A stretch of DNA of 64,000 nt from Nitzschia sp. pyKryTriq1 (lineage: Eukaryota > Bacillariophyta > Bacillariophyceae > Bacillariales > Bacillariaceae). The position numbers and the translations under genes are program-made. Positions within the stretch are counted from its first letter, which is position 1. Every line of letters begins with the position of its first letter. This document shows positions 35,349 through 49,166 of this stretch, piece after piece. Under the pieces are notes generated by a model. That model saw only the letters and a list, made by a program, of their open reading frames with translations. It was not told the DNA's origin and searched no databases. The DNA lies in the NCBI GenBank assembly GCA_956465555.1, contig OY101125.1, forward strand, positions 870,501 to 934,500, given 5' to 3'.

Positions 35349-36051
35349 GACTTTGATTCCGTGTCTATATTATTAGTAGTATATTAGTATCAGAACGTGA
35401 AAATTCAAAAGGGTGACCATGGGTACGGGGTACTCGTCGTACTTGTATGCTTTCGTAACGCTTATAGTACTTTAATAGATTATGGCTACGTACACGTACC
35501 AGGTAGTCCCGGGGTATCGAGGTAGTGCTAAAGTAGCCAACATACCGGTAGGTACGGTTACTCTACTATTGTGCCGGTACGTACCGTGTACCGGTAGCTT
35601 GGTGAGGTGCGGTGACATACTGTAGCTTTCCTTACTGGAACACGTGGAATGACGACAGGACGACTTTCCTCGGAGGAAGGAACGTAGAACGGACGGACTA
35701 GGTCGGCTGAACGGTCTGGCATGCTGTCCTACTGCCGCCACGAGAAGTTCGACCGCATTCGACGTTCGGCTCGAATAATACACACTTGCTTTCTCGGCCT
35801 CTCGCCGCACGCCGCACATGCATGCAAGATAAAATAGCATCATCTCTTTGTTCGAAGAGCCAATAGGTGTGCTTTCTGTTATCTCATACTTCAGAGCTTA
35901 GGAGGCAAATAGAAGTGGCTTGTCCCCGACGTCGACTCGAGAGGAAGTGAATTGAATGAAAATTACAAACGTTCATTTCAGGAAACTACAGTGAAGCAGA
36001 AGCGCCAACGGCAATCCCAGCTAGCGCATTCACAAGTCCAGCAACACAAAA
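35349..36051. repeat. intergenic region with GTACCGG cluster
   Basis: A GTAC-rich cluster covers about 35485-35595 (acgtaccaggtag, cataccggtaggtacgg, gccggtacgtaccgtgtaccgg). The right part is the promoter of UPF1. No gene is seen. Confidence 0.5.
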
Positions 36052-39000
36052 ATGACGGTGGCCACAGAACCCCCGCCGCCCAACCCGAGTTTTGTGGACG
36101 ACGACGATGAAGAAGAGGATGGCAACGACGACGAAGAGGAAGAAGGTTCTGTCTCGGACGTTTCCGGAGACGAAGAAGCCGAATCTAGCGAAGATGATGA
36201 TGAAGAAGAAGAGGACGACGATCAAGATTTGCTCTATACCATGGATCATTACGATGAAGAAAACCTACCTGAGTATGCCTGCCGCTATTGCGGAATCCAC
36301 GACCCGGCCTGTGTAGCGCATTGCGTAGAGACCAAAAAGTGGTTTTGCAACGCCGTGATGGGAAGCGGAGGGAGCCACTTGGTTCACCATTTGGTGCGAT
36401 CTCGATCTCACCAAGTTCAGTTGCACCCTGAGTCTCCTTTGGGGGATACCGTCCTGGAGTGCTACAACTGTGCCAGTAAGAATGCTTTTGTTCTTGGTTT
36501 TGTACCTGCTTCTTCTAGCAGTGTGGTGGTTTTGCTTTGTCGCGTCTGTGTTGAGACTGTTCCAGCTCTCAAGGACATGGACTGGGAATTGGCGCAGTGG
36601 CATCCTCTCATTCAGGATCGCAAGTTTCTTCCCTGGCTCGTCAAGGTGCCAAGTGATAAGTTGCTCTTGAGAGCCCGAGAAATATCGCAAGCCCAGATGA
36701 CCAAGTTGGAGGAGCTCTGGAAGAATGAACCAGAGGCCAGGTTTGCCGACTTGGATCGTCCTGACATTCTTGAAGATGAAGAAATGTCGCCCACATTGTT
36801 GCAGTACGAAGACGGCTTTCACTATCAGAACGTGCTAGCGCCATTGGTAAAGATTGAGGCTGATTATGACCGCCAAATTAAGGAGAGCCTGACGGAAGAA
36901 TCCATTTCGGTGCGTTGGGATAAGTCTTTGAGCGGAAAAAACGTTGCTTCCTTTACCTTTCATCGCATGGCTGTCGAGCAATCTCGCATCATGGTAGGCG
37001 ACGAACTTCGACTGAAATTAGGAGATGGGGCTTCCTATCTCTACGGAAAACCCTGGGAAGGGGTGGGATACGTCAAGGGTATTGTGGATGGTGAGGTGGA
37101 GCTCGAGCTTCGCAGCTCCGGCAATGTTCCCGATTCCATCCATGACGACTATATTGTGGAATATATCTGGAAGAGTACCTCATACGACCGTATGCAGAAT
37201 GCACTCAAACCATTTGCGATCGATGACACCAGTGTGACTGGATACATCTACCATCGGTTGTTGGGGCACCCCGTAGAGGAACAACGCATTGCGACTGCTC
37301 GCATCCCCAGCAACGATAGTGACTATGGAGTACCCGGCCTTCCGCCCCTAAATGAATCTCAGATCGAGGCTGTTGCAGCCGTCTTACAGCGACCGATGAG
37401 TTTGATCCAAGGTCCTCCCGGAACAGGAAAGACGGTCACCTCGGCGACTTTGGTGTACCATCTTACCAAGCAAAACATGGGACAAGTTTTGGTGACGGCG
37501 CCGTCGAATGTTGCCGTCGATCAATTGACGGAAAAGATTGCTGCCACTGGTCTTCGTGTCGTTCGATTGGCGTCTAAGACACGTGAAGCCAGCACGAGCT
37601 CGGTCGATAATCTTTGTCTGCATGTGATGGTCCCGCAGGCCGCCGGGGATGAGTTCAAGAAACTTCAGCGTTTGAAGGATGAAATCGGTGAATTGTCTGA
37701 ACGCGACCAGAAGAAGTATCGATCCCTGAGAAATCGCACTGAGCGAGAAATTTTGCAAGCCGCCGATGTCATCTGCTGTACTTGCGTCGGAGCTGGTGAC
37801 CCTCGCCTCAAGAATTTTCGATTCCGTCAAGTTCTAATCGATGAAGCAACTCAAGCCATTGAAGCAGAGGCATTGATTCCCATTGCCATGGGAGCCAAAC
37901 AGGTAATCTTCGTTGGTGATCACTGTCAGCTCGGGCCTGTGGTGATGTGCAAGGCAGCGGCGAAGGCTGGCCTTACGCAGAGTATGTTTGAGCGCTTAGT
38001 CCTGATCGGAACTCGTCCCATTCGCCTCCAAGTCCAGTATCGTATGCACCCTGCGCTATCGGAGTTTCCCTCCAACATGTTTTACGAAGGAAGTTTACAG
38101 AACGGAGTCACGGAAGCCGATCGTCAGCTATTGAACATGCCAGGGTTTGCTGGAAAAGAGGATTTTCCATGGCCTGTACCAAGCAAGCCCATGTTTTTCT
38201 ACTCCATCACAGGAATGGAAGAGATTTCTGCGTCTGGAACTTCGTATTTGAACCGAACCGAAGCTTCTTACGTCGAAAAGGTTGTAACCCACCTCTTGCG
38301 TATGGGAGTCACTCCTGCTCAGATTGGTGTGATCACTCCCTACGATGGGCAAAAGAAGTACGTTTCGGAGTACATGCGTCGTTCAGGTGCACTTGCCAGT
38401 GCATTGTACGAAGCGATTGAGGTTGCTTCCGTCGACGCCTTTCAAGGACGAGAGAAAGACTTCATTCTGGTCTCCTGTGTACGTTCCAGTGAGACCCAAG
38501 GCATTGGTTTCCTTTCGGATCCTCGCCGTCTGAATGTCGCATTGACCCGCGCCCGTCTAGGTATCATCGTGTTGGGAAATCCGCGTGTTTTGAGCAAGAA
38601 TGCTTTGTGGGCCGCGCTACTTCTGCACTTCAAGGAGTATGATTGCTTGGTCGAGGGCCCCCTCAATAACTTGCAGCCGAGCTACATGACTTTCGCTCGT
38701 CCCCGCCGGAATCCAGCAAGTGATTCTCGTTATGCTTTCACGGCTTTGGCACGTGGTGGATGGGATGGACGTTGGGATGATCGTCGTTCTCGCAATGATG
38801 AAGCGGCCGCTCCAGGCTTTCGCACAGTTGGTCGCCGTGGTCGCGGCAAAGAGCAGCAAAACGATTCTCGTTTCGATGCTCGCTACAATGACTCTGGCTA
38901 CGATCCAGAGCCTTCTAGCAATCTCGCGACCGGCACAAATGGCTTGCCAATCCCCAACTTTGCACCTCTCCCGAGTTATGCCGGTGGGGATGACGCAAGT

Positions 39001-39189
39001 AGTGTAGGGGGCGACAGCTCCTTTGGAGGATCTCAGTTTGGAGGAAGCCGTGCTGGACTTTGGTCACAAAATGGCCGTGCTCCTGCTGCAGCCAGTGACA
39101 AAGATCGTGGGCCTGGTTTGGGCTTTTTTATTGGAGGAGGGAACTATCTTGGAAATGATGCTAGTGCGTCGGATGGCAGGAAATTCTAG
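36052..39189 (+). CDS. UPF1: UPF1 RNA helicase (nonsense-mediated decay)
   Basis: 1045 residues, single exon. UPF1 is the ATP-dependent RNA helicase at the centre of nonsense-mediated mRNA decay. An acidic N-terminus (DDDEEE runs) precedes the Cys-His domain that binds UPF2, from residue 77 ([44 protein letters not shown]). The beta-barrel 1B region lies near 270-400. Superfamily-1 motifs are all present: GPPGTGKT (454-461), DEAT (597-600), QYRMHP (662-667), [12 protein letters not shown] and LNVALTRAR. The C-terminus is Arg/Gly/Ser-rich with [12 protein letters not shown] and a single SQ (GLWSQNG); it is much shorter than the phosphorylated SQ tail of animals. Start at the first ATG. Confidence 0.95.
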
Positions 39190-43058: not shown

Positions 43059-44449
43059 CTAAGCCCCTCTTACAGTCGTCTCTTGAACCTGCCTTTGCCT
43101 TTTATCGCCGGGCTCTTTTCCATCTTTGGGGTCCTCCTTTGGGGGGGGACCTGGTGGTCCTGGTGCAGTTGGTGTAGTCTCAGTTGGTGGAGTTCCACTT
43201 GGGGCAGCGACCGGAGAGTCATAGTACGGATAGTCATAGTCCGGAAGGTCATAGTCCGGCCCCCCAAGCTTGGGGCCGTCCTTCTTTCCCTGTAGTACAG
43301 CAAAATGGATGAATGGTGAGAGATCGGCTCCCCTCAGATTTCAATATTTGGACCTAATACACGTACACTTTTTTCTTTCTTCCCGTCTTTCTTTGCCCCC
43401 TTATCGCTCCCTCCACCATCTTTTTTCCCTCCCTTATCGCTCCCTCCGCCGTCTTTCTTTCCTCCTTTATCGCTACCACCGCCACCGTCTTTCTTTCCTC
43501 CCTTCTCACTCTCGTAGTCGCCACCGCCACCATCCTTCTTTCCTCCCTTCTCACTACCACCACCTCCTTTCTCACTTTTGCATTTCTTTCCTGTCTTGCT
43601 TCCACCCCCTTCTTTCTTGCCACTCTTGGCACCATCCTTCTTCCCGCCCTTGTATGTTCCATTATCATACCCGCCAGAACCGCCCTGGTGGTCGAATGAT
43701 GGGTGAGAAAACGCTTCGCTTTTGATACTCCTATACCTCTCGTGTGTTCTCACCTCTGCCTTGTATCTCAAAGTTCGTCCCTTCTTGTCCTCGCCCTCTT
43801 TTTCGTCTCCGTTCTTGTCGTCACCGTTCTTGTCATCACCGTTCTTGTCGTCACCGTTCTTGTCGTCCTCTTTCTTGTCATCTCCGGCGTCATCGTCGTC
43901 ATCGCCCGCATCTGGAGGATAATAATTAAGTTCATCGGGATCATCCATGGAGTAGACGTTGCCTTCTCCCTTCGTTTTCTTGGCGTCCTTCTTTCCCTTC
44001 TTTCCGCCCTTGGTCCCTTTTCCTTTTTTGTTCTTCTTGCCACTCTTGTTCTCGTCGCATACACCCTCGTCGTCGTCGTCGTCGTCGTCGCCGTAGTCAC
44101 CATCGCCCACAGGAGGGTTTACAGGGGGTGTCTCGGGATCTTTCGGGTCTTTGTCAGCATCCTTTTCATCATCTTTGTCGTCATCTTTGTTGTCATCTTT
44201 GTTGTCATCTTTGTCATCCATGTCAGGCCTCTGGTCTTTCTGCTGCCTTGTCCCGGAGTTGGCTACAGTGTAAGTATTGGTCCGATCCAAGTTGCTGAGG
44301 AAGTTGTTGTTCAATTCCGAAAGTTCCCTCTCTCCTGTTTCGCTTGAACGATGCCGGAGACCCTTAGGTCCTCTGCTACCTGCAGTTACCAGCGATAGAA
44401 CGGCAACCAGCCGCCATAGTCGCAAGTAATGATGCCTTGATTGGTTCAT
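43059..44449 (-). CDS. secreted Lys/Gly/Asp-rich repeat protein, possible cell-wall/silica protein
   Basis: Three exons, 44449-43754, 43684-43367 and 43289-43059, all phase 0, give 414 residues. Introns are 69 nt (gtgaga...accag) and 77 nt (gtacgt...ctacag). After a likely signal peptide (LRLWRLVAVLSLVTAGS) come: an acidic KDDNKDDDKDDEK block; a Lys cluster (KKNKKGKGTKGGKKGKKDAK); four KNGDD repeats; at least five GGKKDGGGSDK-type repeats; and a last exon with PDYDLPDYDYPYYDSP and a Pro/Thr stretch. Alternating lysine clusters, acid blocks and Tyr/Pro tails are features of silica-associated and cell-wall proteins of diatoms (silaffin- and cingulin-like), but there is no sequence identity claim. 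The 69-nt intron is in frame and stop-free. Confidence 0.65.
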
Positions 44450-46370: not shown

Positions 46371-47858
46371 TCAAGGTTGCCCATACGGTGTATGGATTGG
46401 TTGATAGCCGCGAGAATTAGCGTGACTACAATGTCCCAAAAAGTACTCTCGCATAAAGGATGCGTTTCCTGTGCCATTTCTCCCCCAGGAAATCTCCAGA
46501 TCTCGTCGGTAAAGAAACCATTCGTGGTGGGCTCGGCGACACAGCCGCATTTCGATAATGTCCCGTCCGTGAGGCGAACAAGTCCAAGGCTTGAAGCAAA
46601 TCGTGTAATGGAACGTCACAATATCACTAATCTTTCGATTTCGGCAATCCTCGCATTCCTGAAAGTTCATGCAATGACGTGACGTCCAGCAGCAAGAACA
46701 AAACAGGCATCAGCAAACATGCACTTTCCATTCGAAGATCTAAATGGGTACACAACTCTTTCTTACCTCTTGGTTCGTTCTACATCGGCCCTGTGCCACA
46801 TCTTGAATAGCTTCATCGGTCGTGGGATTGTCTGCCATATTGTTGTAGACACAGCGATTCAGTTCTACCGCTTGATTGGGGTGGAGATATTCGTAGTACC
46901 ACGGTAGCAGTCCTTGAATGGTCATCCCCCCATGGAATGGCCCCACCTTCCCGCCCCATCCTCGACCTTTTCTATCATCTCGGTAATCGCCTTCCCGCAC
47001 AATACGGATAAACTCGTTGTAGGTATCCAAGCTCGGCTTGATCATGAAAAATCCTCCCTGAAAGGGTTTATCGGGTCGCCGCGGTGCTACTACGTTGTAG
47101 TCTTTGGTAAACATCAACGAAATTTCTTCGGGGATGGGTTTGTCTGGCCACATGAGAAAGGATTCGAGCTGCTCCTTGTTCTGGGATGCTTGCTGTTTTG
47201 GATGCAGCATCAAATCTATCGCCGGGTCCATGGGCTGCATTACAAGGACATCCAAATCCAAGTGGATGACCACAGGATGCTGCGTTAAACGAAAGGCTTC
47301 CAACTTGATGAGCTCTTTCTCGCCACAGCATCCATTATTGACAATTCGCTCTCTCAAGACGTCTCCTTTGATATCACTGACGTTGATGGGAGTCGGGCGT
47401 TCCAAGAGTTCAAAGCCCAAGTCCACAAGGGGAAGGGAGCATTCCAAAGCATCGGGATGATGCAAAATGTACATTTTATAATCGTACTTGCCTCCTTTCG
47501 GGCCATGAATGGAAGTCAGATCGATCGAATATTTGAGCACAGCCGCGCCTTCCGTGAATTTATCAGACCCACAAGCAGTGATTGTCGACGCGATGCCAAT
47601 CGTAATGACAGCTCCATCCTCCATCATGGTGTTAACACCATGCCCACTCACACCCGCACCAAACAACGGTCCTCTCACGTGATGATGATTCGTATTAGCA
47701 CCAATGGCGGACCAAAGCAATACAACGTAAAGAGACAAAATGATGCTCAAGAGAATCGAGAGTTTTCGGGTCGTGCAGCTCAAAATGATCCATCGGGGCG
47801 GGCGACGACGGCGCTCCTCCCTTATTTTTGGAGCTTGCTGTTGGGATCGACGACTCAT
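46371..47858 (-). CDS. Golgi-type glycosyltransferase (type II membrane protein)
   Basis: Exons 47858-46767 and 46658-46371 give 459 residues; the 108-nt intron (gtaaga...tttcag) is phase 0 and joins RTNQE to ECEDCRNRK. The N-terminus is short and basic, then one membrane span at about 32-52 (LSILLSIILSLYVVLLWSAI), the layout of Golgi transferases. The catalytic part reads like GT8/glycogenin-like nucleotide-sugar enzymes: KYSIDLTSIHGPKGG, IKLEAFRLTQHPVVIHLDLD then VLVMQPMD (the DLD is the metal-binding DxD), FQGGFFMIKPSLDTYNEF, and GPFHGGMTIQGLLPWYY. Exon 2 adds a Cys-rich tail (CEDCR, HYTICFKPWTC, RLCRRAHHEWF), seen in related algal proteins. Start at 47858; the donor sugar is unknown. Confidence 0.8.
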
Positions 47859-49166
47859 CGCATTTTGCAGGGAAAGCTTGGACACGAAATTTGTTTATCG
47901 ATCTACTCCACAGTACAGTCGGTACCTTCCTTTGGGGCCAACATTAACATTGTCGATTGTCGAGACGGTTTCAAAATACGAGTAAGAGTACATACCTAGA
48001 CATCAAGAAGAAGAGAGGAAAGAAACAACACCATGGACCGCATGGACTGTTTGTTGGCAACAAGTTTTCGTCGTCACGGTGTTTGAGTTTATATCATACC
48101 GGTACTGTGCAAGTGCTGTACCAGTACAGTACCGGTACCGGTACCGGTACGGTACTTGTAGGCGGACGACGGACGACGACGAGGAGCTGTCGTGAATGAA
48201 TTGGATTCGTGATGTACAGAAACAGTCCCAAATGGAAATCCAATCGAATGAGTCTGCGATAGAACCGGAAAGCTATCTTGGAAGCCAGGCTCCAGCAGAT
48301 CTTGGTTTTGGCGCGAGAGACAAGGGACGAATGTTCGTTGTTGCTCGGGACGAGAAGTGGAACAATCATTGGAGAGCTCACCACTTTTCACAGAATCGAT
48401 CATCGTTGAAAGCATTGATACTGACGACGGAGTCGCGAACAAGTCGATGTCCCGGATGATGTCCAGTTTGTAGTAACCCGCCCACCCTCCCACTGGTTTG
48501 GCCCGACAGATTCGGTCGAACCAGTCGTGAAGGGAGCGGAGAACATAGTAGTTCCACCCCCTTAGGCCAATACACCAATACGTATCACGAAAGGACCCGC
48601 CGGAAGCACGGCGAGCTGACGCAGTCGTTGACAGACGACAGATTCTCTCACCGTCTGTCTGTCTCCCAGCTCACGGGCGGATTATTTACATTTTAGATTT
48701 ATTGAGATGATAAAAAATAATGATGAATCACAGCATCAGAGTAGCGCGACGGCCGAAGCAATAGGTGGTGTCTTCGCGAGCTAGCGGTGATGCCATAAGT
48801 ATTGGAAACATTATTGCATGCATGATGTGCGAGATGGTGTCTCAAACCAGATGATATAAATAAGCCTCTTGAACCCGGCAAGATTAAATACTTTTTGATT
48901 TATGAAACACATCAATCATTCCCGATTTAGCGTCTCATAGTAGAAAATCAGAACACCAAGACTCATTCTTCTCAGAGAACATCTCCTCGCTCGATCCATG
49001 CCAGAACCTCTCGGCGGCTTTCTGACACCCGTCGCCGCGTACCGATACTCAATACCGGTAACTGTACCTGTAACCTGCAATATATGTTCATAATTTCTTA
49101 TTTTCAATCAATTTGCATCGCAAACCAACCCACACTCACACCACCAACAAAAACTAAAGAATAATA
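47859..49166. repeat. divergent intergenic region with (GGTACC)n run
   Basis: A near-perfect alternation of accggtaccggtaccggtac lies at 48130-48156 inside a wider GTAC cluster (48098-48160). To its right, a minus-strand open frame without ATG (about 48674-48240) is protein-like and is listed separately. GTAC words recur near 49050-49075. Confidence 0.6.
48240..48674 (-). other. protein-like open frame without start codon
   Basis: The minus strand is open from about 48674 for more than 140 codons. It reads ASGGSFRDTYWCIGLRGWNY, YVLRSLHDWFDRICRAKPVG, GWAGYYKLDIIRDIDLFATP, SSVSMLSTMIDSVKSGEL. The amino-acid mix, with many aromatic residues and no low complexity, is unlike the random frames nearby. 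There is no ATG before the conserved-looking part and the frame then runs into the GTAC repeat, so it is an exon of an unseen gene, a gene fragment or chance. Family not recognised. Confidence 0.3.

Follow-up and report, generated by a model that had tools for sequence, protein, structure and literature searches.

Silaffins, cingulins and silacidins, the diatom proteins with which the locus described here was compared, are reported to enter the endoplasmic reticulum (ER) by means of a signal peptide. Pentalysine clusters target silaffins to silica, cleavage at RXL sites is presumed, and silaffins are zwitterionic through their amines and phosphates (PMC5501833, PMC9650480, PMC4557024). The silicon-responsive genes described for Thalassiosira pseudonana are as a rule repeat-based and phylogenetically restricted (PMC5501833), and lineage-specific repeat proteins like the one analysed here are an already known kind in diatoms. 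The screen for silaffin-like proteins (SFLPs, or KXXK proteins) from the same work was used as a frame in the current study, together with the targeting work (PMC9650480, PMC4557024). As defined there, a pentalysine cluster consists of five non-consecutive lysines in 12–14 residues, and such clusters were reported in eight of the ten new members (PMC5501833).

The gene lies on the minus strand of a 64,000-nt stretch (the window) of contig OY101125.1 of Nitzschia sp. pyKryTriq1, with its ATG at 44449–44447 and its stop codon, TAG, at 43061–43059. The two-exon span 43059..44449 proposed in the initial annotation was exact. Exon 1 (43367..44449, 1083 nt, residues 1–361) starts at the first in-frame ATG and is open throughout, and exon 2 (43059..43289, 231 nt) encodes residues 362–437 and the stop codon. 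We infer from the sequence that a 77-nt intron (43290..43366, GTACGT...CTACAG) is removed between them. The frame is also kept by other GT-AG pairs; this intron was preferred because its sites are consensus-like and because the GKKDG unit resumes past the junction (DGKKEKS ahead of it, GKKDGPK after it). Without splicing, the frame would stop ten residues beyond exon 1 (371 aa) and only the tail would be lost. The predicted spliced product has 437 aa, 46.7 kDa and a pI of 5.4.

The genome has eight matches to the Pfam family of silicon transporters (seven of them at 873–885 bits) and 72 to the FCP family, and is thereby identified as that of a diatom. The best PDB match of one FCP was 7vd6_21, of Chaetoceros gracilis, and was not identical. 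A stretch of about 42 kb on one contig (G000:C1:275839-317295) contains four of the eight silicon transporters, and a divergent copy (G000:C13:1242726-1244183) scored 451 bits, compared with 873–885 bits. In the window, a UPF1-type RNA helicase (UPF1_Zn_bind, E 3.3e-64) is encoded at 36025–39189 on the plus strand. A 384-aa ORF at 46740–47894 on the minus strand, which has a DLDVLV motif and a single hydrophobic stretch at its N-terminal end, resembled a Golgi glycosyltransferase by eye; no Pfam match above cut-off was obtained for this ORF.

The 437-aa chain is of low complexity almost throughout, and is composed mainly of Gly (17.4%), Asp (16.2%) and Lys (16.0%), followed by Pro (6.6%), Glu (6.2%), Ser (5.9%) and Tyr (3.7%), with a single Trp (0.2%). 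Past residue 23, positive and negative residues make up 20.5% and 23.7%, and there are 98 Asp/Glu compared with 43 Ser/Thr. The signal-peptide-like start (44381..44449, residues 1–23) is followed by a linker with an RXL match (REL, 44321..44329, residues 41–43), an acidic block with KDDN repeats (44138..44224, residues 76–104, +7/−17), a Pro linker, a run of seven Asp (44069..44089, residues 121–127) and a lysine cluster (43967..44050, residues 134–161, +14/−1). These are followed by an acidic block with KNGDD repeats (43787..43909, residues 181–221, +7/−21) and, after a linker, by a K/G/D array (residues 267–369, +32/−17), a Tyr/Asp/Pro segment (43209..43265, residues 370–388), a Pro/Thr-rich segment (43140..43208, residues 389–411) and a charged end. 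Most of the array is encoded by exon 1 (43367..43651, residues 267–361); the exon 2 part (43266..43289, residues 362–369), GKKDGPKL, prolongs it past the splice, and DYDLPDYDYPYYDSP is also encoded on exon 2. KNGDD occurs three times and KNGDE once, KGGKKDG five times and GGKKDGGGSDK twice in exact form, and the Asp runs comprise D7 and D5. The initial annotation had listed a signal-like start, blocks of acidic residues, clusters of lysine, repeats of KNGDD and GGKKDGGGSDK, and a Tyr/Pro tail on exon 2, and all of these were found.

Lysine pairs were in excess at spacings of +3 (25, mean of shuffles 11.5) and +4 (26, mean 11.7), each count being reached by 0 of 500 shuffles, and 1 of 1000 shuffles was as strongly charge-segregated; part of this is caused by the repeats themselves. 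Lysine–acid pairing was rejected as a special feature of this chain: 81% of the lysines have an acid within three residues, shuffles gave 80%, and 503 of 1000 reached the observed value. The corresponding proportion was 9–49% in eight other ORFs of this genome with lysine repeats, described below.

The repeat copies were compared with each other by codon position, the differences being pairwise counts that are not independent. For KGGKKDG (five copies, nine codons) the differences at positions 1/2/3 numbered 4/8/46 (46 of 58 at the third position), for KNGDD (four copies) 0/0/9, and for KDDN (four copies) 4/0/6 (6 of 10). PDYDx (three copies) showed the opposite trend, with 4/3/0 and none of seven differences at the third position. 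In an extended KxxKKxG set of eight copies, which includes the first five KGGKKDG, 111 of 130 differences fell at the third position. The third-position bias in three of the four repeat sets favours selection on the protein. It speaks against a fast-evolving low-complexity gene that is under little selection, has grown by simple-repeat slippage and has no specific function, a reading that we consider very improbable. The 437-codon frame is also intact across the plausible splice, and GC3 of the exons (0.55 and 0.48) is inside or near the range of seven other ORFs in the window (0.46–0.54). For slippage, the seven codons of the Asp7 run are all GAC, and this run could have originated in that way; the PDYDx copies, lacking the bias, point in the same direction.

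The absence of relatives in the searches performed would likewise suit slippage. At E values up to 10, exon 1 matched only itself in the whole genome, and no relatives of either exon were found by tblastn among viral, bacterial and archaeal contigs, a comparison that carries little weight for diatoms, or for the product in Pfam and NCBIfam. Exon 2 matched itself and, weakly, a single 1138-aa frame of the genome in two stretches (E 0.75 and 0.84), which were dismissed as chance. KGGKKDG, GGKKDGGG, KNGDDKNGDD and GKGGKKGG were not found in the main texts of the full-text papers searched.

The N-terminus was scored with a von Heijne matrix for eukaryotes, for which the usual cut-off is 3.5. The score of 7.61, for a cut between VTA and GS, was the highest among the 73 ORFs of the window that start with ATG and have at least 100 aa, and was reached by 12 of 2000 shuffles of the N-terminal start; 11 of the 73 exceeded 3.5, so the matrix is not specific. 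As positive controls, two FCP starts scored 4.18 and 8.26, and six starts of the lysine-repeat loci of this genome scored 3.81–8.75 (that of L037 lies in a separate upstream ORF). In diatom plastid signals, Phe is expected after the cleavage site. No Phe follows the predicted cut, and the predicted start is therefore unlike a diatom plastid signal.

Six Arg and zero acidic residues precede position 37, and the hydrophobic moment rises to 0.44 in residues 16–33. Both would fit a mitochondrial presequence or the lack of any signal, in which case the product would be an intracellular (e.g. nuclear or nucleolar) charged low-complexity protein; lysine-rich repeats are also present in a histone-H2A-like ORF of this genome (L046). 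However, the hydrophobic core of the start, LVAVLSLV, is uncharged (mean of 3.1 on the Kyte-Doolittle scale) and is followed by a good cleavage site, and over this core the hydrophobic moment is low (0.06–0.20, windows starting at 7–13). An intracellular location is thus judged improbable, and the signal-like start is taken as supportive, not decisive, evidence for secretion.

Formally, the 437-aa protein would pass the published silaffin-like screen, barely so for the KXXK spacing and with a signal peptide that is predicted. A single close pair of K[SG][SG]K motifs (within six residues) was found, KGGK 267–270 and KSGK 275–278 with four residues between them; other neighbouring pairs are at least seven residues apart. 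At least five lysines in 14 residues occur at several places, as in pentalysine clusters, and strictly non-adjacent sets (135–147 and 350–363) are obtained only if lysines are chosen among KK pairs. RXL is represented by REL and by RTL (43769..43777, residues 225–227), a three-letter motif with one free position and hence weak evidence.

These features were also counted in a background of 156,133 bases, a non-random set consisting of the window and of loci from HSP70, silicon transporter and FCP searches, with six loci covering this gene excluded. Among its 110 ORFs of at least 150 aa, spurious ones counted, the present ORF had the highest share of K+D+G (52%, runner-up 32%) and was alone in having at least two K[SG][SG]K. 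Five or more lysines in 14 residues were found in 11 of the 110, showing that this feature is not specific, and a lysine cluster together with a matrix score above 3.5 in two.

In the genome, all five matches to KGGKKDG (control 0) and all three to the DDK..DDK pattern of the KNGDD repeat (control 1) belong to this gene. The sister motif GKGGKKGG had 11 matches at five other places (control 0), all of which are K/G/S-repeat ORFs (L052, L053, L055, L057 and L065). Signal-like starts were scored in L052, L053 and L057, and one is visible, unscored, in L065; in L055 none was located. DNA of the K[SG][SG]K[SG][SG]K type gave 57 matches in the genome, compared with 22 for the reversed pattern, and these were grouped by us into 27 places, 13 of which were read. 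Six have a lysine-repeat ORF in the manner of silaffins or cingulins (L035, L037, L052, L053, L054 and L055), five have no long ORF with at least two such motifs (L029, L030, L033, L034 and L036), and two are not wall-like, a 565-aa ORF (L032) and L046. The latter (G000:C5, near 1398160) is histone-H2A-like by eye, with the tail GGKGGKGGKGGK; KXXK alone is no marker of wall proteins.

Several of the lysine-repeat loci have features of their own. L052 (G000:C12:1288500-1292500) is a 714-aa ORF that begins in a signal-like manner and contains Asp6, units of KGGKKGG and of Tyr/Asp, and a Pro/Thr stretch; the next ORF, in another frame, has two Fasciclin stretches (PF02469, E 4.6e-54), and the two are perhaps one spliced gene. 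L053 (G000:C9:2018500-2022500) is an 827-aa cingulin-like ORF in which 60 K[SG][SG]K alternate with DYPYP-type stretches, and it has two Asp8 runs and RRL sites. L054 (G000:C5:1704500-1708000), a 316-aa ORF, has six Asp runs of at least five residues, KSSKSSK clusters and Pro/Thr repeats, and the same stretch contains an ORF that by eye resembles a Copia-type reverse transcriptase. L065 (G000:C17:364900-367900) and L057 are lysine-repeat ORFs with signal-like starts and RXL, and are candidates for the same set of wall proteins.

The present gene shares KGGKK units with L057, L052, L053, L055 and L065, the end of L057 (KGGKKGGDGGKGAKKGG) being close to KGGKKDGGGSDKGAKKDG of this gene; with L052 and L053 it also has Asp runs and Tyr/Asp/Pro stretches in common. 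We suggest that KGGKK could serve as an inexpensive marker when the genome of this diatom is scanned for wall candidates with lysine repeats. Ser, at 5.9% of the present product, makes up 15–24% of these five and 15.0–27.5% of seven of the eight lysine-repeat ORFs (L035, L037, L052–L055, L057 and L065). The eighth, L035, is intermediate (Ser 7.3%, lysine near acid 49%), and the gap between this protein and the other ORFs is therefore a matter of degree. When five blocks of the product were aligned locally with the eight ORFs (40 alignments), the best was reached by 2 of 150 shuffles; alignments no better than composition-matched shuffles do not demonstrate common descent with these ORFs. The initial annotation had regarded the order of blocks as unfamiliar. 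The underlying theme recurs in the same genome (L052, L053 and L054), so that the order seen here is a variation of it.

On balance we favour, by a little, a protein in the style of silaffins or cingulins: secreted, disordered and polyampholytic, most likely located in or on the biosilica, and with anions that are largely encoded Asp/Glu and not phosphate on Ser/Thr. A silica or wall protein had been proposed at the outset. This proposal agrees with the diatom genome, the signal-like start, the lysine clusters, RXL, and the occurrence of GKGGKKGG at five K/G/S-repeat loci; it is weakened by a matrix cut-off that 11 of 73 ORFs pass, by homology that does not go beyond composition, and by KXXK spacing found in one pair. 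The low Ser content and the presence of K[SG][SG]K-type DNA in the non-wall-like L032 and L046 were also counted against a biosilica protein.

Residues 1–23 would lead such a protein into the ER and then be cleaved off, and further cleavage at the RXL sites is possible. The lysine clusters may aid sorting to the silica deposition vesicle, where lysine amines, perhaps modified, would pair with the encoded Asp/Glu carboxylates and with long-chain polyamines. The resulting charged matrix could offer a surface for silicic acid condensation, to which the Tyr/Pro tail might, speculatively, add cohesion. In favour of this mechanism, silica nucleation was reported to be about 18 times faster on surfaces with amine and carboxylate than with carboxylate alone; against it, the same source describes a polyamine-acetate system that gave no silica precipitate (PMC11733937). 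Residues 1–187 of CinW2 are likewise described as targeting the wall without need of the lysine-enriched regions, although these are active alone (PMC9650480).

Much of the negative charge of silaffins and silacidins comes from phosphate. If the present protein is a wall protein, its Ser-poor, Asp-bearing lysine repeats would allow an unmodified recombinant test of the replacement of phosphate by carboxylate in biological silica formation. A stronger form of the idea, in which Asp/Glu of the repeat replace phosphoserine and make a silaffin analogue with its own anions, zwitterionic and silica-active without a kinase, and hence a phosphorylation-independent branch of diatom silica proteins, is doubtful in our view.

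The composition would also suit any other secreted polyampholyte, such as a mucilage, adhesion-trail or outer organic-casing protein whose Lys/Asp blocks bind anionic polysaccharide or calcium and which never enters the silica deposition vesicle. A composition screen for Tyr/Lys-rich adhesion proteins of Amphora yielded proteins of similar appearance. However, AC3362, described as the sole protein of that screen that could be localised, was associated with biosilica and absent from trails (PMC4220933), and RXL and lysine clusters suit silica proteins; a role in mucilage or adhesion is accordingly rated unlikely.

A protein in or on the biosilica, the reading favoured here, can be compared with five described systems. 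With the SFLPs or KXXK proteins of T. pseudonana, as presented in PMC5501833, the protein has in common a signal-like start, K[SG][SG]K, lysine clusters, RXL, a short Pro/Thr stretch and lineage-specific repeats; it differs in having one KXXK pair that follows the spacing rule, and lysines whose surroundings are Asp/Glu and Gly to a greater extent than Ser. Silaffin Sil1p of Cylindrotheca fusiformis resembles it in its signal sequence (here signal-like), the RXL after it and an acidic part ahead of basic repeats (PMC4557024). Whereas the basic Ser/Lys repeats of Sil1p each end in RRXL, here the repeats have few Ser, neither of the two R.L matches in the protein falls in the 267–369 array, and acidic and basic blocks alternate twice. 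Cingulins share lysine-enriched regions and a Tyr-rich segment (PMC4557024, PMC9650480), but their KXXK stretches alternate with Tyr/Trp-rich regions, while here the single Tyr/Asp/Pro segment (370–388) is terminal and Trp occurs once. Silacidins also have acidic repeats in a precursor, which here has a signal-like start; they are Ser-rich phosphopeptides with Ser/Asp/Glu-rich repeats released at RXL (PMC4557024, PMC11733937), in contrast to the acidic blocks 76–104 and 181–221, which have no Ser and no RXL and whose repeats consist of K/N/G/D. AC3362 of Amphora coffeaeformis is lysine-rich and modular, contains Tyr and Pro and is described as having no homologues by plain BLAST, like the present protein; its contents of Tyr (8.0%) and Pro (14.3%) are higher, and it is biosilica-associated where the present protein is only proposed to be so, the likeness being one of description and not of sequence (PMC4220933). 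Judged by its architecture, the protein is best called a silaffin-like candidate with an unusually Asp-rich and Ser-poor repeat.
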